From: a candidate division WOR-3 bacterium
GTDB lineage: Bacteria; SDB-A
NCBI GenBank assembly: GCA_016934535.1
Contig: JAFGSQ010000042.1
Span: 1-46,480 of the forward strand
Length of the DNA: 46,480 bases
Direction: 5' to 3'
A program made the translations under genes and the position numbers. Shown one piece after another: positions 29,131 to 46,431 of the stretch (position 1 is the stretch's first letter; the number at the start of each line of letters is the position of its first letter). Under the pieces are notes generated by a model. It saw only the letters and a program-made list of their open reading frames with translations. It ran no database searches and was not told where the DNA came from.

Positions 29131-31206
29131 TTATCCTCCGCACTCCTCGCATCCGCCGGCGTATTCCGAATCGACTGTTTTGAGTCTGCATGATTTGTCT
29201 TTAGGCTTCATGAGAACCTGATTGTTTTTACTGCCGTCTCTGTATATTGTTATTCCTTTGCAACCAAATTCGTAAGCGTTCAGGTAAACTTCCTCCACTT
29301 GTTTATGTGTCGCGGTGCTCGGAAAATTAACCGTTTTACTGACGGCATTGTCCGTATATTTCTGAAATGCTGCCTGTATTCTGACGTGCCAAATGGGTTC
29401 AATATCATGCGCCGTTTTAAAAACATTTTTTAATTTTTCGGGGATATTTTTCATTTCTTTAAGCTTTATCCCTTCTCCAATAGCTGATATGACAGCCCTT
29501 TTGTCAATTCCTTCTCTGTCAAGCGCGTCGTTGAGCAATCCATTTACTTCCAAAAAATGCGTTCCGTCCAAAACGTTTCTTATAAAAACGAGATCAAAAC
29601 ACGGTTCGATGCCGCTCGCAGTTGCGGCAATTATGCTTATTGATCCTGTGGGGGCTATCGTCGTCAATGTGGCGTTTCGTCTCGGTTTTTCATTTCTTTC
29701 AGCCATTACACTTAGGCTGTAATTGGGAAAAGTTCCTTTTTCTGCTGCAATATCCTTAGAAGCCAGGTCCGCTTCAGTTTGGATGAATTTCATGACTTCT
29801 TCCGCTTTTTTCTCTGCGGCCAAAGAGTCGTACGGTACTCCGAGCAAAATCAGAAAATCGGCAAAACCCATCACACCAAGACCGATTTTTCTGTTTTTTT
29901 TGACAGTTTCTTCTATCAGAGGCAGAGGATATCGGGACACGTCTATAACGTTGTCAAGAAACCTCACGGACGTTGCGACAGTTTCTTTTAATGAATCCCA
30001 GTCCACCTGATTGTTTTTTACGAATTTAGAAAGGTTAATGGAACCGAGATTGCATGCCTCGTTGGGAAGAAGCGGTTGTTCTCCGCATGGATTTGTCGCT
30101 TCGATCAAACCAAGATTTTTCATTGTATGAAGTGAATTAATCCTGTCTATGAAAATGACTCCGGGATCTCCGCTTTCCCAGGCTTTTGAAACGATAAGCT
30201 GAAAAATCTCATTGGCATCCGCTTTAGCCGTCTCTCTGCCATTTTTGGGATTTATCTGAGAATAACTTTTTTTCTGGCGCACTGCTTTGAGGAAATTGTC
30301 TGTCAACGCAACTGAAATGTTGAAGTTTGTAAATTGACCTTCGCTTACTTTTGATGTGATGAACGAAGCTATATCTGGATGGTCAACTTTGAGAACACCC
30401 ATGTTCGCTCCCCTTCTTTTTCCTCCCTGTTTTATAACTTCAGTAGCGATGTCGAAAACCCTCATGAAGGAAACGGGACCGGAAGCTATACCGCCAGTAG
30501 ACCTGACTTCATCGTTTGCGGGTCTGAGCCTCGAAAACGAAAAACCGGTTCCGCCGCCTGTCTTGTGTATCAAGGCGGCATATTTTACTGCATCAAAAAT
30601 ACCTTCTATGGAATCTTCTACCGGTATGACGAAACAAGCCGCAAGCTGAGGGAAATCTGTTCCGGCATTCATCAATGTCGGCGAATTCGGAAGAAAAAAG
30701 CCTTCGTTCATATTTCTAAAAAATTCTTCTTTCCAGTAATCAGCCTTTTTATCAGAAAAAAATTTTTCGGCAGAAGAGACACATTCCGAAACTCTTTCGA
30801 ACATCTCTTTTGGAGATTCAATGACGTTCCCCTCTATATCCTTCAGCAAATAACGCGATCTGAGAACTTCCAACGCATTTAGAGGAAGTTTGGCCTCGTC
30901 TTTTTCTACACCGAAAATCACCTTTTTAGCCGTTCTCAGTGCAGCGTGCTCCTGTCTGTAGAGAATGTACGCTTTAGCGACTTCGAAATAATCCTGTTTC
31001 ATCAGTTCGTTTTCGACAATGTCCTGAACTTTTTCTATGTCAATTTCTGTTTCTTCTCTTTTTTCGATTTCCTTAATGACATTATCCGTGACAATTTTGA
31101 CCGGAACAGGATCCAATCCCTTGGCTGAAAAGGCTTTGGAAACCGCTTTTTCAATTTTAGATTTATCGAAATCGACTATTTGTCCGGATCTTTTTTTTAC
31201 TTTCAT
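29131..31206 (-). CDS. nrdJ: Adenosylcobalamin-dependent (class II) ribonucleotide reductase
   Basis: 691 aa. It begins with an ATP-cone domain (VKKRSGQIVDFDKSKIEKAV) and then the reductase barrel: NSPTLMNAG, CFVIPVEDSIEGIFDAVKYAALIHKTGGGTG, the catalytic loop NPCGEQPLLPNEACNLGS with active-site Cys and Glu, RKIGLGVMGFADFL and APTGSISIIAATASGIEP. The protein ends in a cysteine pair (CEECGG) that can carry reducing equivalents. No class I NrdB is nearby and the TGGGTGFSFSRLRP pattern is that of B12-type enzymes. It converts ribonucleotides to deoxyribonucleotides with or without oxygen. It overlaps nrdG by 4 nt (ATGA) and has GAGG upstream. Confidence 0.92.
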   Translation of the reverse strand: MKVKKRSGQIVDFDKSKIEKAVSKAFSAKGLDPVPVKIVTDNVIKEIEKREETEIDIEKVQDIVENELMKQDYFEVAKAYILYRQEHAALRTAKKVIFGVEKDEAKLPLNALEVLRSRYLLKDIEGNVIESPKEMFERVSECVSSAEKFFSDKKADYWKEEFFRNMNEGFFLPNSPTLMNAGTDFPQLAACFVIPVEDSIEGIFDAVKYAALIHKTGGGTGFSFSRLRPANDEVRSTGGIASGPVSFMRVFDIATEVIKQGGKRRGANMGVLKVDHPDIASFITSKVSEGQFTNFNISVALTDNFLKAVRQKKSYSQINPKNGRETAKADANEIFQLIVSKAWESGDPGVIFIDRINSLHTMKNLGLIEATNPCGEQPLLPNEACNLGSINLSKFVKNNQVDWDSLKETVATSVRFLDNVIDVSRYPLPLIEETVKKNRKIGLGVMGFADFLILLGVPYDSLAAEKKAEEVMKFIQTEADLASKDIAAEKGTFPNYSLSVMAERNEKPRRNATLTTIAPTGSISIIAATASGIEPCFDLVFIRNVLDGTHFLEVNGLLNDALDREGIDKRAVISAIGEGIKLKEMKNIPEKLKNVFKTAHDIEPIWHVRIQAAFQKYTDNAVSKTVNFPSTATHKQVEEVYLNAYEFGCKGITIYRDGSKNNQVLMKPKDKSCRLKTVDSEYAGGCEECGG

Positions 31207-31898
31207 ATAAATCCTCTCGAATTGACTCGCGCAAACCGCGACCTTGCAATTTTTATCATTTTTTCGACGATTTCATAATCGTGGGGTTTCAAGTTTTTAA
31301 ATTCGGGATCGAGTGTCTTGTCAGGGACAAATTGCTGCAAAACCAAATCCCTGTCGCCGCCGAGGATTGAACTGATTTTGTTCATGTCTTCTTCCTCGAC
31401 CAGACCCGGCACTACAGTTGTTCTCAATTCATAACAGATACCGGCGGCGTCGAGAGTCTTAACTATTTCTAATATGCCGTCGAAATTGAAGCCGGCATTA
31501 ACTGCCTTAAAATATTTTTCGGGCGAGCTTTTTACGTCAATAGACACAAAATCAACGCACTTCATCTCAGCTATTCCGGCAATCATACCTGGATTTGAAC
31601 CATTGGTGTCCAGTTTGACAGCGAAATGATTTCGTTTGAGAAGCACCATGAAATCAATTAAATCATCATGAATTGTCGGTTCACCGCCGGAGACGACAAC
31701 CGAATCTATTAGTTTTTTTCTTTTTTTGAGTGTCTCTATGATTTCATCGACCGTCTCGACGCCTTCTTTTTTTATAGCGACAAGCTCAGAATTGTGACAA
31801 AAAGGGCACCTGCAGTTGCAGCCCTGCGTGAATAAGACCGAACTTATCCTGCCGGGATAATCAATGGAAGAAAACGGAAGAAAACCTCCTATTATCAT
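31203..31898 (-). CDS. nrdG: Anaerobic ribonucleotide reductase activating protein (radical SAM)
   Basis: 231 aa. The radical-SAM cluster motif is at C27-x3-C31-x2-C34 (QGCNCRCPFCHN), with an extra C29; the GGEP SAM-binding segment follows (VVSGGEPTIHD). The N-terminus GGFLPFSSIDYPGRISSVLF is typical of the NrdG/PflA-like activases that sit beside NrdD. It should install the glycyl radical on the upstream-encoded NrdD. Its ATG at 31898 is 18 nt after nrdD and has only a weak ribosome site, so coupling is likely. Confidence 0.92.
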   Translation of the reverse strand: MIIGGFLPFSSIDYPGRISSVLFTQGCNCRCPFCHNSELVAIKKEGVETVDEIIETLKKRKKLIDSVVVSGGEPTIHDDLIDFMVLLKRNHFAVKLDTNGSNPGMIAGIAEMKCVDFVSIDVKSSPEKYFKAVNAGFNFDGILEIVKTLDAAGICYELRTTVVPGLVEEEDMNKISSILGGDRDLVLQQFVPDKTLDPEFKNLKPHDYEIVEKMIKIARSRFARVNSRGFI

Positions 31899-31916
31899 CT
31901 GCGAGCTTCAATTTAA

Positions 31917-34052
31917 TCAGACGACTGCGGCCGCAAACTTCACTGCTTCTCTCTGGAAAATCTGATCGTTTTGGCGATGAGTATCTTTTTGAATAATGTA
32001 GGTTTTTCTCTGAGCAAATTCTTCTTTCTTGCCTTTGTTCCAGTTTTTGACAGGCCTGTAATATCCCACCACTCTGCTGTATATTTCAGTCTCTCTGCCG
32101 CATTTAGGACAGGTTGCAACGCTTCCTTTGATATATCCATCGTCGGGACACACCGAAAAAGTCGGGGAAATCGTGAAATACGGAAGGGTGTATCCGTACG
32201 CGACTCTTTTGACAACATTTTTTATGCAAGTGCTCTCTGCGCTTTCGCCTAGGAATATGTGAAGTACGGTTCCTCCCGTGTACTTTGCCTGTAACTCTTC
32301 CTGATGCTCGAGGACTTTGAATACGTCGTCCGAGTAACCGACGGGAAGAAGGCTGGAGTTTGTGTAATACGGATTGTTTTCTCCGCAGGCTATTATGTTT
32401 CTGAACAGCTTTTTGTCCATTTTTGAGAGCCTGTACGAAGCGCCTTCCGCTGGAGTGGCTTCCAGGTTGTAAAGGTGTCCGGTTTCCTGCTGATATTTTA
32501 TTAGTTTTTCTCTCATGAAATCAAGCGTCTTCTTGGCAAACGCTTTTCCTTTAGGTGTCGAAATATCTTCGTCAGGACCGAAAAAGTTTATTACGGATTC
32601 GTTTACTCCGACCAGGCCGATTGTTGAGAAATGATTTGCCAGAGATCCAAGATATATCTTACTGTAAGGAAACAATCCCATATCCATGTTTTTCTGAACA
32701 ATTTTCCTCTTAATTTCCAAGCTGTCTCTTGCAATGTCCATTACTGCCGAAAGCCTTCTGAAAAATTCGTTTTCGTCTGAAGAGAGATATCCGATTCTCG
32801 GCATGTTTATGGTGACGACTCCTATGGATCCAGTCTGCTCACCGCTTCCGAAAAGACCTCCTGTTTTATTTTTCAGTTCTCTGATGTCGAGCTGAAGACG
32901 GCAGCACATCGATCTGACGTCGGAGGGTTTCAGAGAACTGTTAACAAAATTCTGAAAATAAGGAATGCCGTACTTCGCGGTCAGTTCAAAAAGAAGCTCC
33001 ACGTTTTCGCCTTCCCAGTTGAAATCTTTTGTTATGTTGTAAGTAGGTATTGGAAATGTAAAAATTCTTCCCGTCGAGTCTCCTTCCATCATGACTTCAA
33101 TGAAGGCTTTGTTTATCATGTCCATTTCTTTCTGAAAATCGCCGTAGACGAAATCTGTAAATTCAGTCCCTATTTGAACCGGTTGATTTTTCAGATCGGG
33201 AGGAACCACCCAGTCAAAAGTCAGATTAGTGAAAGGAGTCTGTCCTCCCCATCTTGAAGCGACATTGAGGTTGAAGACAAAAGACTGAATTGCCTGTTTG
33301 ACCTGTCTGTAATCGAGATTGTCTATACGCACATAGGGGGCGAGATAGGTGTCGAAAGAATTAAAAGCCTGCGCTCCCGCCCATTCATTTTGAGCCGTAC
33401 CCAAAAAATTGACTATCTGGCCAAGCGCAGAGAGCAGATGCTTAGGAGGTTCTGCAGAAACTTTGGCGGGAACTCCTCCGAATCCGTTTGTCAAAAGGCT
33501 CCTTATAGACCATCCGGCACAGTAGCCGGCTATACCCATAGAAAGATCATGAATGTGTAAGTCGCCGTGTCGGTGGGCGTAAGCTATCTCAGGGGGATAG
33601 ATTTTGTTCAATGAATAATTGGCAACGACACTTCCGGCTGCGTGCAAAAGAAGGCCGGAGAAAGAATAATCAGAGTTTGAATTTTCCTTGACTCTCCAGT
33701 CGCTTTGCAAAACATAACTGTCCAAAGTTTCAACCACGTCCAGAAGGGATTTTCTCACGTCTCTTATACTTTTATGCTGTTCTCTGTACAGAATGTATGC
33801 TTTTGCCGCATCGTATTCATTGTGCTCGAAAAGCTTTCTTTCTACTATGTCTTGAGTTTCTTCGACTTCAGGATAGTACAGGTTTTCAGATGTTCGCAGG
33901 ATTTCAAATGTCTCGAAGGCGATTTTCCGGACTTTTTCTTCGTTTTGGGTTCCAACCGCATCGAGAGCTTTTCTAACCGCATCTTCGATTCTCTGGATGT
34001 CGAACGGTACTATTCTGCCGTCTCTTTTTTTCATACAGCTCATTTCTCTCAT
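31917..34052 (-). CDS. nrdD: Anaerobic (class III) ribonucleoside-triphosphate reductase
   Basis: 711 aa. An N-terminal ATP-cone (MKKRDGRIVPFDIQRIEDAV) is followed by the glycyl-radical barrel with SMCCRLQLDIREL. The C-terminal zinc ribbon (CPDDG...CPKCG) and the radical loop RVVGYYRPVKNWN place the radical on G663. A tail of 48 residues follows that glycine. The enzyme reduces NTPs to dNTPs anaerobically. The ATG at 34052 directly abuts the nrdR stop and has GGAGGT within the end of nrdR; internal Met codons 4 and 7 are weaker alternatives. Confidence 0.95.
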   Translation of the reverse strand: MREMSCMKKRDGRIVPFDIQRIEDAVRKALDAVGTQNEEKVRKIAFETFEILRTSENLYYPEVEETQDIVERKLFEHNEYDAAKAYILYREQHKSIRDVRKSLLDVVETLDSYVLQSDWRVKENSNSDYSFSGLLLHAAGSVVANYSLNKIYPPEIAYAHRHGDLHIHDLSMGIAGYCAGWSIRSLLTNGFGGVPAKVSAEPPKHLLSALGQIVNFLGTAQNEWAGAQAFNSFDTYLAPYVRIDNLDYRQVKQAIQSFVFNLNVASRWGGQTPFTNLTFDWVVPPDLKNQPVQIGTEFTDFVYGDFQKEMDMINKAFIEVMMEGDSTGRIFTFPIPTYNITKDFNWEGENVELLFELTAKYGIPYFQNFVNSSLKPSDVRSMCCRLQLDIRELKNKTGGLFGSGEQTGSIGVVTINMPRIGYLSSDENEFFRRLSAVMDIARDSLEIKRKIVQKNMDMGLFPYSKIYLGSLANHFSTIGLVGVNESVINFFGPDEDISTPKGKAFAKKTLDFMREKLIKYQQETGHLYNLEATPAEGASYRLSKMDKKLFRNIIACGENNPYYTNSSLLPVGYSDDVFKVLEHQEELQAKYTGGTVLHIFLGESAESTCIKNVVKRVAYGYTLPYFTISPTFSVCPDDGYIKGSVATCPKCGRETEIYSRVVGYYRPVKNWNKGKKEEFAQRKTYIIQKDTHRQNDQIFQREAVKFAAAVV

Positions 34053-40044: not shown

Positions 40045-40878
40045 TTATTGTTCTTTCTTTTTCACTCTCAATTTGATTATCTTTTGTCTTGTAGCATCAA
40101 TAACTTCGAATTCGAGATTGCCGTCGGAAAATTTTTCACCTTTTTTGGGTATTTTTTCCTGTTTGTCGAGAACGAATCCCCCTACTGTGTTGTAATCTTC
40201 TGATTCGAGATTTAAGTTCAGCAGATCATTGAAATCGGAGAATTCCATCCGCGCGTTCACAAGATAAGAACCGTCCTCCTCCACAGAGAAATCTTCCTCT
40301 TCCTGTTCCCTCGTGTCTTCTATCTCCCCAATTATCTCTTCAACAAGGTCTTCAAGGGTCACAATTCCGCAGACCCCGCCGTATTCATCGACCACCATGG
40401 CAATTGAAAGATGCCTTTCCTGAAGGTCTTTTATTGTTTCCAGAACCGTTTTACTTTCCGGAATAAAATGAGGCAGACATGCAAAATCTATCGCTTTGTA
40501 AGGAGTTTCAAGAATTTCGTGCAGAAAAGGTATGACATCTTTTATTTTCAATATGCCCACTACGTCGTCAATGGTGTCCCCGTAAAGGGGTATTTTGCCG
40601 AAACGGTGAAGTGTGTACGCTTCTATTATTTCGTCTATTCCTGCCGTCGCAGGCAGAAAAACAGTTTCAACTCTCGGCACCATGATTTCCTCGACTCTTG
40701 TGCTCGTCAGATACATTACGCCCTTCAGAATGTCGGCCTCGGCTTCCGATATGATACCTGATTCTTTCCCTTTGTTTATTACGGTTTCGGCTTCTTTTTC
40801 CTTGTTTTCTTTTCTGTTCTTTATCAGTTCTCTAATAAATTCAATTATTTTTTTTCGTTTATTTGATTCTCCGTTCAT
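40045..40878 (-). CDS. CorC/HlyC-like CBS-domain protein
   Basis: 277 aa and soluble: a charged N-terminal helix, EADILKGVMYLTSTRVEEIMVPRVETVFL leading into a CBS pair (about 65-190), and a CorC_HlyC C-terminal domain (about 205-275). The MVPR and VVDEYGGVCGIVTLEDLVEEIIGEI segments are family signatures. CorC-type proteins are linked to Mg/Co efflux or adenine-nucleotide sensing. There is no DUF21 membrane part, so it is the CorC form. The gene overlaps DUF502 by 4 nt. Confidence 0.9.
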   Translation of the reverse strand: MNGESNKRKKIIEFIRELIKNRKENKEKEAETVINKGKESGIISEAEADILKGVMYLTSTRVEEIMVPRVETVFLPATAGIDEIIEAYTLHRFGKIPLYGDTIDDVVGILKIKDVIPFLHEILETPYKAIDFACLPHFIPESKTVLETIKDLQERHLSIAMVVDEYGGVCGIVTLEDLVEEIIGEIEDTREQEEEDFSVEEDGSYLVNARMEFSDFNDLLNLNLESEDYNTVGGFVLDKQEKIPKKGEKFSDGNLEFEVIDATRQKIIKLRVKKKEQ

Positions 40879-41552
40879 GTCTCGGTCCCTTTTTCATCCT
40901 CTCTTATTTTTATGTTTTTTCTGGGCGTGATTATGCCCCCTGAAACAACCACTCTGATCCCCTCCTCAATAGTCAGTTCTGTCATCTTTATTTCCTCCTC
41001 GGGAAGCAGGAGATAAAAACCTGAAGTCGGATTCGGCGTCGTGGGCACAAACACCGACCCGAGATTTGTTTTTTTTCCGTCTTCGGAACATTTTTCAACC
41101 CACGATTTAGTGTTGGTCAAAAATCCTAACGACCAGCATCCCGTTCTGGGATATTCTATCATGACAACTTTCTGAAAAGCTCTTTTGTCGAGAAAAAATG
41201 TTTCGGTAAGCTCTTTCACTCCGTTGTAAATAATCTTTATGAGCGGCAGTTTTGTCATGAGGGCATTAGTCCATCTGATTAAAATCTTGCCTATGAATGT
41301 TCTCGCGACGACTCCGGTTATAAATATAAATGCGACCAGTAATATAAAACCCATCAGGTCCTCGACCAATCTGGGAAAAGGAAGATACCTTGCGAAAGGT
41401 TCCAATACAGTCCCGCCAATCTCGATGATGAACTTGAACACGAAAACAGTCAGACCTATCGGAAGAAGAGTCACCACTCCCGTAATAAAAATATTCCTGA
41501 TTTTGGCTTTAAATCCATGCCTGGAACGAGGCAATCCGTCTCGATCGTCCAT
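40875..41552 (-). CDS. DUF502 family membrane protein
   Basis: 225 aa. Two membrane segments (IFITGVVTLLPIGLTVFVF and FILLVAFIFITGVVART) and a soluble C-terminal domain with TGCWSLGFLTN and VFVPTTPNPTSGFYLLLPEEEI, the DUF502 signatures. The function is unknown in all organisms that I know of. It lies 4 nt after the four-gene membrane module and overlaps the CorC-like gene, so it is cotranscribed with both. Confidence 0.88.
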   Translation of the reverse strand: MDDRDGLPRSRHGFKAKIRNIFITGVVTLLPIGLTVFVFKFIIEIGGTVLEPFARYLPFPRLVEDLMGFILLVAFIFITGVVARTFIGKILIRWTNALMTKLPLIKIIYNGVKELTETFFLDKRAFQKVVMIEYPRTGCWSLGFLTNTKSWVEKCSEDGKKTNLGSVFVPTTPNPTSGFYLLLPEEEIKMTELTIEEGIRVVVSGGIITPRKNIKIREDEKGTET

Positions 41553-41556
41553 GACT

Positions 41557-42174
41557 TTATTTCAAAATGCGGAGCCAGTCGTGCATCAAAAAATAAAACC
41601 TTCCTATCAACAGGGATATTCTTGCCATCACAGTGTATCCGAATGACGCACCGAATGTGATCATAAGAAAAATCATACCTGTTCTCGCTCCCGCTCTGAA
41701 AAGCCATTTATGCTCTATGGAGAAAAAGAAATAGAAAAGACCTGTGGCCGTACCGACGAGAAGAAGTATCTCGCCTGCGGAAGAAAATAAGTTTCCGTTC
41801 CACAGCGGGACAATGGCTGAATAAACCTGTTCGTAAAGATTCGATTTCAGAAACGTAACGAAGCCGTAGCCGGCTCCTATTCCGACAACAAAAGCAATTG
41901 AGATGTGAGAAAACCACCTTGTTTTATCAAAAAGCTGAAGGATAATGAACAGAGAAAGGGCTGCGGGAAATACGTAAAGAAGATTTCCTCCCCTGAGAGG
42001 CATTATCAGATTTGGAACCACGACGTCGTGCCAGCCCTGAACCAGCAAGTAGCCCGCTGATACTCCGACGTAGATCGATTCGGCAATTTTGTAAAAAACG
42101 TTGTCTTTGTACAAAAAACTGAATATCGCGAGAGTCAGAAAACCCGCGATCCAGATCCCAACCGTCTCAGTCAA
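41557..42174 (-). CDS. Polytopic membrane protein of the DUF6754-linked module
   Basis: 205 aa with about six hydrophobic segments. Conspicuous stretches are YVGVSAGYLLVQGWHDVVVPN near residues 36-56 and GGNLLYVFPAALSLFIIL. The start is a TTG at 42174 supported by AGGG 7 nt upstream; it overlaps the preceding gene by 8 nt. No enzymatic motif or named family is recognised. Tight overlap with three other membrane-protein genes suggests a shared complex. Confidence 0.75.
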   Translation of the reverse strand: MTETVGIWIAGFLTLAIFSFLYKDNVFYKIAESIYVGVSAGYLLVQGWHDVVVPNLIMPLRGGNLLYVFPAALSLFIILQLFDKTRWFSHISIAFVVGIGAGYGFVTFLKSNLYEQVYSAIVPLWNGNLFSSAGEILLLVGTATGLFYFFFSIEHKWLFRAGARTGMIFLMITFGASFGYTVMARISLLIGRFYFLMHDWLRILK

Positions 42175-43003
42175 TTTTTTTCCCTCTCTTCTGTATGAAA
42201 TAAATTACGTTGCCGAATAAAATAAAAGCTATTATGCATATATGCGCTATCGACTGCGCGTCCATTCCGCTCGACGCCATGCCGGGACTATCGAGAAGCT
42301 GTTCGTAATCCGCCGCTCCTGCCATCCCTCCGATTAGACCGATAAGTTGACCCGAATTGAAATACGGAGAATACGCCGGCGCGCTGACCGCTGTGCAACC
42401 GGCTATAATATTTTTTCCGTATTTATCCTTGCCTATCTGAACCCAACCAATCACACCGGGATCTCCGGCCGACAATGTAACTATCACGGCGATTTTGTCG
42501 AGATTGAAATTGACTTCTTTAAGGACCTCAATGTCTTTTGTGCTTCTGCCCGTCAAATCTCTGGGACACGTTTTTTTTATGTCTCCAGCAATATTGTCAA
42601 TCGCGACAACTCCCCCCGACTTATATCCCAGGTTGACGAAATTTATCCACCGTTCCTTGTCGTATTTTAGCGCCGCTTCATTGAGCGCGTTTTCCGCGAA
42701 TCTCACTCCCTGGGGCCACAGGGCGACCGTTATGACGTTAACGTTTTTTGAAAATGCATGCTCAATAATCGATTTACCCATAGGATATAATTCAGGCGCT
42801 GCGGCAGGATCAAAATCGAAGGAAACAAGTATGATAGAATTTTCGGGCAGGCTGTCTATGAAAGCGAAGGAAGAATAAACCGCCTTGGAATCCTCCTTGT
42901 CGACAATTATCGGTATCCGGAGAGGAAAGAGAAGCGGAACAACTACAGCGAGCGCTATGAAAAGAAATATTATCCTTCTGTCAAGTTCGAATATTTTCTT
43001 CAA
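42167..43003 (-). CDS. Membrane protein with extramembrane alpha/beta domain, DUF6754-linked module
   Basis: 278 aa: TM1 about residues 9-30, then a globular alpha/beta domain (ILVSFDFDPAAAPELYPMGKSIIEHAF, VNVITVALWPQGVRFAENAL, IAVIVTLSAGDPGVIGWVQIG) and a C-terminal TM (about 250-270). The start is TTG at 43003 overlapping the upstream stop by 4 nt (TTGA). No family name was recognised. The segment LIGLIGGMAGAADYEQLL near residue 215 may be a membrane-associated helix and is the best search seed. Confidence 0.75.
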   Translation of the reverse strand: MKKIFELDRRIIFLFIALAVVVPLLFPLRIPIIVDKEDSKAVYSSFAFIDSLPENSIILVSFDFDPAAAPELYPMGKSIIEHAFSKNVNVITVALWPQGVRFAENALNEAALKYDKERWINFVNLGYKSGGVVAIDNIAGDIKKTCPRDLTGRSTKDIEVLKEVNFNLDKIAVIVTLSAGDPGVIGWVQIGKDKYGKNIIAGCTAVSAPAYSPYFNSGQLIGLIGGMAGAADYEQLLDSPGMASSGMDAQSIAHICIIAFILFGNVIYFIQKRGKKID

Positions 43004-43614
43004 TTCAGGTATGACCTTTCAATGCCGAATATTATCCTCAGTGACGTAGCTATAACGCCCAGAGCGGCGCCGATCATTATTGCTCTCTGCCCAGCAGTGT
43101 TTGGAATTTCCATTATCCAGGCCTGCGCCGCCGGAAGATACGAAAAAATTATTTTTCCTATGGGTACCCTTCCGAGCATAACTATTATCGCTGCTGTCAG
43201 CAGGAGGCCTGCTTCGAGATTCCTCGCTCTGAATGCGCGAAAAGACGCCGATGCGACAAAAAAAGCAAGAAGAGAGAACATCGTCGCATTCAACGGAGTG
43301 TAAAAATGCCTGAAAATAAAATCAAACGCCGAGCCTTCCTCCATACCTCCTCCCCATCCTGCAAATACGGTGACTAGAAGCGTGAAAATAATGACGGCGG
43401 AATAAAACCAACCCCTCCTCTTTTTCATCATCTTCAGGAAATTCACTTTCAGAAGGTTCAAAATCCCCAATATCATTGCAAAGACCGCGACGACCATGTA
43501 CCAATTCTTGAGAGTGTTGGCCGCCTCTCCAACCGGGTAACGAGGAACGAAAAACGACGCGATTATAATCATCCCGCTGACGAATGTTATTGCGAGCGGT
43601 ACGTATCTTTTCAT
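43000..43614 (-). CDS. Polytopic membrane protein, DUF6754-linked module
   Basis: 204 aa, about six hydrophobic segments, including YVPLAITFVSGMIIIASFF at the N-terminus and GQRAIMIGAALGVIATSLRI at the C-terminus. Start is ATG at 43614, 18 nt after the DUF6754-like gene. No named family was recognised. It overlaps the next gene by 4 nt. Confidence 0.75.
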   Translation of the reverse strand: MKRYVPLAITFVSGMIIIASFFVPRYPVGEAANTLKNWYMVVAVFAMILGILNLLKVNFLKMMKKRRGWFYSAVIIFTLLVTVFAGWGGGMEEGSAFDFIFRHFYTPLNATMFSLLAFFVASASFRAFRARNLEAGLLLTAAIIVMLGRVPIGKIIFSYLPAAQAWIMEIPNTAGQRAIMIGAALGVIATSLRIIFGIERSYLN

Positions 43615-43632
43615 GTTAAAAAACCGCCTTTG

Positions 43633-44940
43633 TTATCCCGTAAAAAAAATATTTTTAATAATATTTACCCCGAACGAAGCGAGAATACTGCCTGCGACGA
43701 TAGCCGCTATTGCGGCGGCTTTTCCGAAATCCTGCGCCTTCAGACTTCCGATCAAGTGAGGATCGTTCGACATGTAGGCGCTGGCGGCGAAAAATTCTTC
43801 GCCGATTAAAGTGTAGTCGCAAGCCGCAACAAAAAAGGGCAGTTGTGAAGGGTCGGCGGTCCCCGATATCTGTATGGCTCCAATTGAATGTCCGGTTTCA
43901 GCCAATATCAGGGATTCGGCATAAAAATGACCCATAAGAAAAACAGTGGCCGGTTTCTCTCTGACCATTATTCCGTCAACCGCGGCCGCGTATCCGAATT
44001 GATCACCGGTAAGATAGAAAACCGAATTTTCATCGTAGGAGTCCGGTCTACCTTCCTGAATGTATGCCTGTCTGACTATTTCTTTTGCCGTGTTGTAAGC
44101 TACAGGGGCGATGGAAGGAACAGACAATTTGCTCTCATAATTAGCCACTCTTCTTGCGACTCTGCCGAGAATTATCATTCCCGCAATGGTTTGAACATCA
44201 TCCATGTCCATTATACCTGGGATGAACAACACATCCTTACCCATCTCGGTGGCTCTGCCGATGGCTTCGTCGACGGCATCAATTCCGCTCAGTTTTCTTA
44301 TGAAATACTTCTTTCCTCTGCCGGCGCTTCTTATGAAAAAAATGAGAAAAAAAGTAAATATAAGGCTTCCAGCAAACATCGAAATGCTCGACTTGGAAAA
44401 CCACGGTTTGTAATAGCTCATTTTTTCAGATTCGGCAGAAGTCAGGTTATGGTGTCCGTCAAAACAAGCAATAGCAAAATAACTGTATTTTTTTCCTTCG
44501 AGAATGTCTTCGTCTGCGTAAAGAGACGAATCCATCTTTAAAGAAACCGTGTCATTTCCGCACACTTTAAAAAGCATGACACTGTCGGGATAGATCCATT
44601 CTCTTCTGCCGTCTTTCACTGGGGGAAGTTCTGTGTAAATTCCCGTGCTGTCCAAACCGAATATCCCGTATGATATCTCAAACCTGAAAGTGCCGCTTTG
44701 TTCCGAAGAAAACTTCGCGGTTTCTATCTTGATTACTGAAGGAAAATTCCTCAAACAAAGTGTGTCGTCATAAAAAGGGATTTCAGTGATCCCGTCAGTT
44801 TCCTCTTCTTCCCGCGCCTCCTGAGAAGCTGAAACAGCAGTTTCCCGTTGAGCTGGAACGATTATTTTTGAAACAAAAAATGAAACTGCCGACGACAACA
44901 AAAAAAGGAACAGCAATAAAACGCCTATTGTTTTCGACAT
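43633..44940 (-). CDS. DUF6754-like membrane protein with extracytoplasmic FN3-like domain
   Basis: 435 aa: TM1 (6-25), an extracytoplasmic domain (about 50-175) that reads like a fibronectin type III fold (YSYFAIACFDGHHNLTSAESE), TM2 (about 183-204), a conserved soluble domain (about 210-405) with GKDVLFIPGIMDMDDVQTIAGM, FYLTGDQFGYAAAVDGIM and VFLMGHFYAESLILAE, and a glycine-rich C-terminal TM (about 408-430). I recall this architecture as DUF6754 from candidate phyla, but could not confirm it here. Function unknown. It heads the run through dnaE to buk. The ATG at 44940 has no Shine-Dalgarno, and a promoter ends 8 nt upstream. Confidence 0.75.
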   Translation of the reverse strand: MSKTIGVLLLFLFLLSSAVSFFVSKIIVPAQRETAVSASQEAREEEETDGITEIPFYDDTLCLRNFPSVIKIETAKFSSEQSGTFRFEISYGIFGLDSTGIYTELPPVKDGRREWIYPDSVMLFKVCGNDTVSLKMDSSLYADEDILEGKKYSYFAIACFDGHHNLTSAESEKMSYYKPWFSKSSISMFAGSLIFTFFLIFFIRSAGRGKKYFIRKLSGIDAVDEAIGRATEMGKDVLFIPGIMDMDDVQTIAGMIILGRVARRVANYESKLSVPSIAPVAYNTAKEIVRQAYIQEGRPDSYDENSVFYLTGDQFGYAAAVDGIMVREKPATVFLMGHFYAESLILAETGHSIGAIQISGTADPSQLPFFVAACDYTLIGEEFFAASAYMSNDPHLIGSLKAQDFGKAAAIAAIVAGSILASFGVNIIKNIFFTG

Positions 44941-45063: not shown

Positions 45064-46401
45064 CTATTGTGTGTCCTTTGAATGCTTTCTGTAGAAAACC
45101 TCGAGAAAATGATGGCATTGCTGAGGCCTGTAAAGCCCGTTCATAATTGCCTTTGCCATGTGTTCGCACGACATGTAACCGCACGCGGCGCAGTTTTTTA
45201 TGTCTTCTTCGGTGAATTTTTCCATTTCCTCGTACAGAGCCTTTATCCCGTCTTCGTCCGGGTCTTCTAGTGTTTTGTAATTCTCGGATTTGTCCGTGTA
45301 TTTTCTCGAAAAATCTACGTCATTCATGTCTTCGAGTATTTTCTGGAGTTTTGAAAGAGCGTCCGGGTCAGGATAATTCTCTTTTTGCTGTTTTTCGAGC
45401 CTTTCACTCTGCAGTTTCAGTATCTCGTCTGTCGTCCTTTCGTCGTAATTCGTCCCCGTGCCTCTGTTGCAGCCGTGAAGACAGTTCAGTATGTCGACGA
45501 GAATTACGTCGCATTTTTTATCTTTTATTTCTTTTTCGAGCTCCTCGAAAAATTCCTCGTAAATTTCCTTGCCTTCCGTCCTTCTCACCTGATGCATTTT
45601 AAGCGGCACGTTATATCTTTTGAATGTCTCAAAAAGGCCTCCGGGCTGTGAATACAGAATACCTCTCTCCGCTTCCATCGGTCCGTCAAAATCCGTCGCG
45701 GGAAATTTTGAAAGATCGATTCCGTTTTTCTCCAGATATTTTTTAAGATTGGTTATTGTGACATTGTATGTTATCTGGCCCTTCGTGTTCGGGTCCTGAA
45801 ATTCGCGGCTTTTTGCTATGCAGGGGCTTATGAAGGCATGTTTCATTCCAGGGTGTTTTTTGTGGACCCATGCTGAAATGTCCATAACAGGACTGCCTGT
45901 CGGGGCTAAATAGGGTAAAAGTTCCGGTTTGTATATCTCTATAAAACTCACCACGGCAGGGCAGGGTTGAGCTATGACAGGTGTTTTAGCTCCCGCCTGT
46001 ATGGCTTTCAAATACTGATACGTTGTTATTTCGGCGCCGAAAGAGACGTCGAAGTTCATCTTGACACCAATCGATTTGAGCCAGCCCAAAAGATTCTTGA
46101 GCTGTCCCGGGAAATTTACGTCTACAGCTGGCGCTACGAGAGCGGCAATGTTCTCGCCTTTTTTCAGGTCTTCTATGAATCTTTCCGTGTCATCAACTAT
46201 GATTCTCGCATCGTGAGTACATGCTCTGACACAGTTCCCACAGCCAATGCAGAGATCGTGATTTACGGTGATGCCTTTCTCCAGGTCGGAAGCGTCGTTG
46301 CAATACTTGACCGGGCACACCTGAATGCAAACGTGACATTGAACGCACTTCTCACTGTCTACATCTACGACAGTCGGCAGGTGAAATTTCATCTCCGGCA
46401 T
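45064..46401 (-). CDS. [FeFe]-hydrogenase-like iron-sulfur protein, putative sensory type
   Basis: 445 aa from ATG 46401 (MPEMKFHLP); GGAGG 5 nt upstream decides this start over the in-frame ATG at 46413. Two N-terminal 4Fe-4S sites are complete (C19/22/25/29 and C51/54/57/61). The H-cluster region has QPCPAVV (C147), SPCIAKSRE (C194, K197) and NCLHGCNRGTG (C307, C311), so all four ligands of the cubane are present. The first cysteine of the usual TSCCP motif, which shuttles protons in catalytic enzymes, is replaced by proline. A C-terminal FeS motif (CAACGYMSC...C) resembles that of group C/D sensory hydrogenases; no PAS domain follows. It probably senses H2 or redox state. Activity would depend on HydEFG maturases, which are not in the window. 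Confidence 0.85.
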   Translation of the reverse strand: MPEMKFHLPTVVDVDSEKCVQCHVCIQVCPVKYCNDASDLEKGITVNHDLCIGCGNCVRACTHDARIIVDDTERFIEDLKKGENIAALVAPAVDVNFPGQLKNLLGWLKSIGVKMNFDVSFGAEITTYQYLKAIQAGAKTPVIAQPCPAVVSFIEIYKPELLPYLAPTGSPVMDISAWVHKKHPGMKHAFISPCIAKSREFQDPNTKGQITYNVTITNLKKYLEKNGIDLSKFPATDFDGPMEAERGILYSQPGGLFETFKRYNVPLKMHQVRRTEGKEIYEEFFEELEKEIKDKKCDVILVDILNCLHGCNRGTGTNYDERTTDEILKLQSERLEKQQKENYPDPDALSKLQKILEDMNDVDFSRKYTDKSENYKTLEDPDEDGIKALYEEMEKFTEEDIKNCAACGYMSCEHMAKAIMNGLYRPQQCHHFLEVFYRKHSKDTQ

Positions 46402-46431
46402 TGCATCCTCCATTTTTATTCTTATAAAATA

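Follow-up and report, generated by a model that had tools for sequence, protein, structure and literature searches.

We wanted to know what is encoded by four membrane-protein genes that follow one another on the minus strand of contig C42 of a 2.23-Mb candidate division WOR-3 genome. The window, by which we mean the whole stretch of DNA analysed here (46,480 nucleotides), is this contig. The four open reading frames occupy positions 44940-41557 in the order D, g2, g3, g4, and the features referred to below are the following.

43633..44940, minus strand: D, 435 aa; signal anchor or TM, extracytoplasmic FN3-like domain, TM, cytoplasmic DUF6754 domain, TM.
44461..44748, minus strand: FN3-like ectodomain of D, approximately residues 65-160; from a profile comparison with FN3 domains in the PDB, all-beta in the model.
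43645..44406, minus strand: DUF6754 region of D, residues 179-432; TM, Rossmann-like alpha/beta cytoplasmic domain, TM.
43000..43614, minus strand: g2, 204 aa; six TM segments, N and C termini inside.
42167..43003, minus strand: g3, 278 aa, TTG start; TM, extracytoplasmic Rossmann-like alpha/beta domain, TM, both tails cytoplasmic.
42281..42901, minus strand: extracytoplasmic alpha/beta domain of g3, approximately residues 35-241; from the predicted structure and averaged topology.
41557..42174, minus strand: g4, 205 aa, TTG start; six or seven TM segments.
40875..41552, minus strand: DUF502 gene, probably co-transcribed in this lineage; outside the conserved system.

The gaps between the genes were +18 (D/g2), -4 (g2/g3) and -8 nt (g3/g4), exactly as given in a first-pass annotation of this DNA, which had described four overlapping or nearly touching membrane genes. 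DUF502, CorC and dnaE come next after the quartet with separations of +4, -4 and 0 nt. These distances make the transcript that was claimed to be common to all of them plausible here, but the linkage was found in close WOR-3 relatives only. In a relative (JAFGIG010000128.1) g3 was 85% identical.

Two other regions of the window are recorded here as separate observations. Directly upstream of the module (45064-46413) lies a gene for a protein with two ferredoxin clusters, an iron-only hydrogenase large-subunit C-terminal domain and a C-terminal Fe-S domain. At 29131-34052 a class III anaerobic ribonucleotide reductase, a radical-SAM protein and a second barrel-domain ribonucleotide reductase are encoded in a single run.

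Protein D is a full-length member of PF20539 (DUF6754), matched over profile positions 4-257 of 257 and residues 179-432 (E = 7e-116, 386 bits against a gathering score of 27). When the family profile was compared with solved FN3 domains, titin was matched with E = 1.8e-30; the earlier description of a DUF6754-like protein with an FN3-like outer domain was thus borne out in both parts. The outside region was all-beta in an AlphaFold2 model built from a deep alignment (mean pLDDT 88.7, mostly above 95 in the DUF6754 domain). For each family, topology was predicted from the mean hydropathy and charge of 83-95 homologues. In D, we found three TM segments, and the charge placed the DUF6754 domain inside. 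By topology this domain is thus cytoplasmic, and it is the FN3 region and the g3 domain that face out. The exposed sensing domain proposed in the first-pass annotation is possible and unproven, as the FN3 ectodomain of D homologues varied from absent to approximately 700 residues.

The cytoplasmic DUF6754 domain was approximately 40% identical across families and contained many near-invariant polar residues, with R229, E232, Q314, E342, S343, E348, Q357, C374, D375, E381 and E382 invariant. Conservation at the strand ends of the alpha/beta domains was not significantly pocket-like (p = 0.64 for D, p = 0.09 for g3). A search of plasmids with one D homologue gave no match.

The averaged hydropathy confirmed six TM segments in g2 and an alpha/beta domain between two TM segments in g3. 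For g4, which had also been described as a six-TM protein, it gave six or seven. The g3 protein was predicted to run from a cytoplasmic tail through a TM segment, the outside domain and a second TM segment to another cytoplasmic tail, and its model was of high confidence (deep alignment, mean pLDDT 96.2, pTM 0.91), with D63, E71, W187, E232 and H254 invariant. The distant g3 homologue of G333 carries a zinc-ribbon region and a long repeat before the first TM segment, and this N-terminal extension fits a cytoplasmic N terminus of g3. A g3 homologue of 1508 aa (L149:2232-6758) has an N-terminal zinc ribbon and a long repeat rich in D-V-P-A-W-L-R units.

In the predicted structures the alpha/beta domains of D and g3 were both Rossmann-like, with six strands each. 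Their strand and helix order in DSSP was similar, a likeness known from the order alone and not from superposition. We detected no sequence relation between D and g3 or between g2 and g4. Foldseek searches with both models returned generic Rossmann and FN3 matches and no close PDB relative of either alpha/beta domain. We considered g3 as a short-chain dehydrogenase or NAD-binding Rossmann enzyme and rejected this, as the best TM-score was 0.28-0.33 (E approximately 1e-3) and more than 0.5 was required. None of g2, g3 and g4 had a match above threshold in Pfam, NCBIfam, PHROGs or the PDB, in agreement with the earlier statement that no known transporter, protease or secretion motif is present. 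An ABC or ECF transporter was likewise rejected, since the three proteins matched no ABC ATPase or permease family in Pfam or NCBIfam.

Next to the properties of single proteins we considered how the genes are distributed. We searched 386 bacterial genomes and 14 control genomes for PF20539. It was present in 102 of the 386 (about a quarter), that is in 89 of 327 genera, 67 GTDB families and at least three phyla, and in none of the controls. Eighty neighbourhoods were fetched and profiles were built for the four families; six-frame searches then yielded 117 D, 105 g2, 109 g3 and 104 g4. Complete D-2-3-4 units amounted to 102 copies in 84 loci, always in one order and on one strand, and since these loci belong to unrelated bacteria the arrangement is not due to chance. 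The median gaps across the units were 12, -1 and -1 nt, and translational coupling thus appears to be general. At the level of genomes, g3 was found in 103, D in 102 and both in 100 (p = 2e-86). The joint occurrence on which the first-pass annotation had made its proposal depend was therefore observed.

Distances between modules were correlated from one subunit to another (r = 0.85-0.90; Mantel test, 0 of 500), with shared species history also contributing to these values. Between tandem paralogues within a locus the correlations were 0.93-0.97, which indicates that the cassette duplicates and diverges as a whole. Nine loci had an extra D beside one 2-3-4 set. The quartet belonged to the core of the four WOR-3 genomes, as it did in the phylum of G137 (8/8, up to six copies), but it was patchy in the large phylum of G138 (22/79). 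It was retained even in a 0.9-Mb genome, and up to six copies per genome were seen. Omp85 was present in 70 of 72 D-positive and 174 of 189 D-negative genomes (p = 0.17), a difference that tells nothing either way about a dependence on an outer membrane. The flanking genes were mixed housekeeping genes and had no consistent functional theme. In a single case, the divergent G333 locus, the neighbours were Wzz/BcsQ-like and DUF4012 genes, as in polysaccharide export.

The quartet had been regarded as the entire system, and this did not hold, because two further proteins accompany it genome-wide (each in 97 of the 102 D-positive genomes). The first, M, is an ASKHA ATPase of the MutL superfamily with a length of approximately 600 aa (PF13941, E = 7e-130), and all three ASKHA nucleotide-binding motifs were found in each of the 30 full-length M proteins checked. 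The second, B, has 375 aa and includes a part that is KOW-like and may be a barrel-sandwich; it matched no family above threshold in Pfam, NCBIfam, PHROGs or the PDB. M scored above the cut-off in 109 of 386 genomes, 97 of them with D (p = 1e-70). B occurred in 97 of 386, all D-positive, and never without D. Fisher tests for the co-occurrence of M, B, D and g3 over the 386 genomes gave p values from 1e-70 to 1e-86. Five D-positive genomes had no B and five had no M, and some of these may be incomplete assemblies.

M-B lay directly before the D unit in 30 loci, often as one operon M-B-D-2-3-4. Two divergent lineages had other arrangements: in G011 a single operon D-2-3-4-M-B, and in G333 the order D-2-3-4-M. 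The linkage also held where the genes lay on separate contigs, for example in G012 (C2 for B, C41 for M, C74 for D), and it is therefore not merely an effect of the operon. Genomes with at least three copies of D numbered 26, and 25 of these had exactly one stand-alone B. The simplest reading is that a shared M-B pair serves several modules. B thus looks shared, and M probably is too.

In the genome under study M and B are encoded away from the quartet of the window, on contigs C3 and C36, each of which bears an M-B-D-2-3-4-D locus. The C3 locus extends into another quartet that is divergent, and the four proteins of this quartet converged on the same families. The two loci (L017:1-11015 on C3 and L018 on C36) were only 79% identical in DNA, and they differed from each other about as much as each did from the sister genome G002 (78-81%). 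One of them may stem from a contaminant contig, contamination being estimated at 3.9%, or may have arisen by an old duplication.

Upstream of M we found a soluble protein of approximately 125 aa in 21 loci (for example L022:6603-7058), with a conserved LESxKPLxFIGSQ-like motif, and in 14 loci a protein of approximately 147 aa with TM segments (for example L068:4425-4868). Neither had a family match above the cut-off. The glycine cleavage genes gcvPA/gcvPB, often just before these small genes, and a lipoate ligase gene recurred in a few M-B-linked loci, and we inferred no function from them. M-B fusion proteins of approximately 950-1040 aa were also detected. In L137-L142 and L144 (for example L138:7322-10171) fused MutL-like and B-like domains had no D module beside them. 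A divergent M-B without D-2-3-4 occurred in WOR-3 genomes (L134:8164-11573 on contig C22 of the present genome, L135 and L136), next to argS, a RecO-C-like gene, purC and an inositol monophosphatase gene.

These data strongly support the view that the quartet is a previously undescribed membrane complex, and its formation is strongly implied by genetic evidence, namely gene order, co-occurrence and co-evolution. In the reading that we prefer, D, g2, g3 and g4 would be obligate subunits of an inner-membrane complex, the membrane part of a six-component transport or assembly system serviced by an ATPase; we give it a probability of roughly 0.4. We infer a physical complex, an action of M on D and the sharing of M-B from these patterns. 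It is speculative, and drawn from analogy, to see the work of the complex in transport or assembly and not in sensing or catalysis; we recognised no transporter, pore or catalytic motif in the module. In such a system g2 and g4 would form the membrane-embedded core. D would reach into the cytoplasm with its conserved Rossmann-like domain and to the outside with an FN3 stalk that varies, while g3 would expose another Rossmann-like domain at the outer face. At the cytoplasmic face M and B would act together, using ATP to power or reset the transport or assembly that the complex performs. A single M-B pair would serve several specialised D-2-3-4 modules per cell; the variable outer part would handle different targets and the conserved inner part would couple to the M-B ATPase.

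We weighed this reading against four others. The complex could be a membrane enzyme in which the alpha/beta domains of D, on the inside, and of g3, on the outside, are both catalytic, and which is reactivated or loaded by M as an Hsp70-like ASKHA ATPase, in the manner of GlmL or reactivases. Such an enzyme would account for the dense invariant polar residues of D and g3, for the Rossmann-like fold of both domains, for the place of M in the MutL superfamily and for one M-B serving many modules. It is a minority possibility that we take seriously, but no cofactor or catalytic motif was recognised, the best fold matches were generic (TM approximately 0.3) and conservation at the strand ends was not above chance.

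Slightly less probable, though also to be taken seriously, is that the module is a trans-envelope sensor or signalling complex, in which the FN3 and g3 domains bind a ligand outside and the state is passed via D to M and B. An outward stalk of 0 to approximately 700 residues together with an outward alpha/beta domain would suit a sensor, and tandem modules with one stand-alone B fit many inputs converging on a shared output. However, the module has no kinase, cyclase, HAMP, PAS or DNA-binding domain, and an ASKHA ATPase would be an unusual output. Moreover, the most conserved part is the cytoplasmic DUF6754 domain and not the ectodomain, and two polytopic six-TM proteins exceed what a sensor needs.

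It is highly improbable that M is a glutamate-mutase accessory (GlmL) whose link to the membrane module is incidental. M does match Pfam MutL, and it resembles the MutL/GlmL family (PF13941; NF040745, TIGR01319) in this match and in the three nucleotide-binding motifs. Nevertheless, its scores were under the NCBIfam GlmL cut-offs (237.8 against 475 bits for NF040745, 174 against 204 for TIGR01319), it has approximately 600 aa instead of approximately 460, and it is tied to the membrane complex, 97 of the 109 M genomes being D-positive. Among the 80 genomes carrying D as well as M, a single one had a glutamate mutase E subunit above the cut-off, and there the mutase is adjoined by a classical MutL distinct from M. 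The result corrects a misleading label, as the 600-aa "MutL/GlmL" proteins described here partner a membrane complex and not glutamate mutase. Finally, an only locally conserved operon of unrelated housekeeping membrane proteins, which the DUF502, CorC and dnaE genes following at once in this genome might suggest, is refuted by synteny, since members of 67 GTDB families, from three phyla or more, keep the order and the genes duplicate as a unit.

Returning to the preferred reading of an ATPase-serviced inner-membrane complex, a unit so conserved can be expected to have a basic role in the envelope, although it carries no annotation. Its predicted composition (D, 2, 3 and 4 with M and B) makes a co-purification or knock-out test possible. 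If the reading is true, the module is a new envelope machine with an ATPase-barrel pair common to several modules. Put in its broadest form, we see an even chance that it is an ancient machine of the envelope which depends on ATP, has not been described before and is common among uncultured diderms, with four dedicated membrane subunits and a shared ASKHA ATPase-barrel pair, and that it works through one Rossmann-like domain in the cytoplasm and one outside. In the literature searched we found no published description of the module and no mention of PF20539. A catalogue that covers unknown gene families of uncultivated taxa in general (PMC10849945) stood outside this comparison.

How does the module compare with what is known? 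D is a full-length member of PF20539, the definition of which lacks a function and lacks the partners g2, g3, g4, B and M. Two systems had been considered and were rejected. The Rnf complex was thought of for B and the two six-TM proteins; one B homologue had a sub-threshold RnfC_N barrel (19.1 of 25.6 bits), and g2 and g4 gave no RnfA or RnfE match in Pfam. An anti-phage defence system was set aside because the six proteins matched no PADLOC model.

Group II ECF transporters combine several membrane modules with one shared cytoplasmic energiser. By analogy, the module would resemble them in having several membrane modules per genome and one shared set of cytoplasmic components, but its ATPase is of the ASKHA and not the ABC type, and we found no similarity of any of its subunits to theirs in sequence or fold. 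PilM of type IV pili and FtsA are actin-like ATPase partners of inner-membrane assembly platforms. The module differs from these platforms in having no pilin, secretin, extension ATPase or divisome component; it may be likened to them, again by analogy, in that polytopic and single-pass membrane proteins would be joined by an ASKHA protein at the cytoplasmic face.
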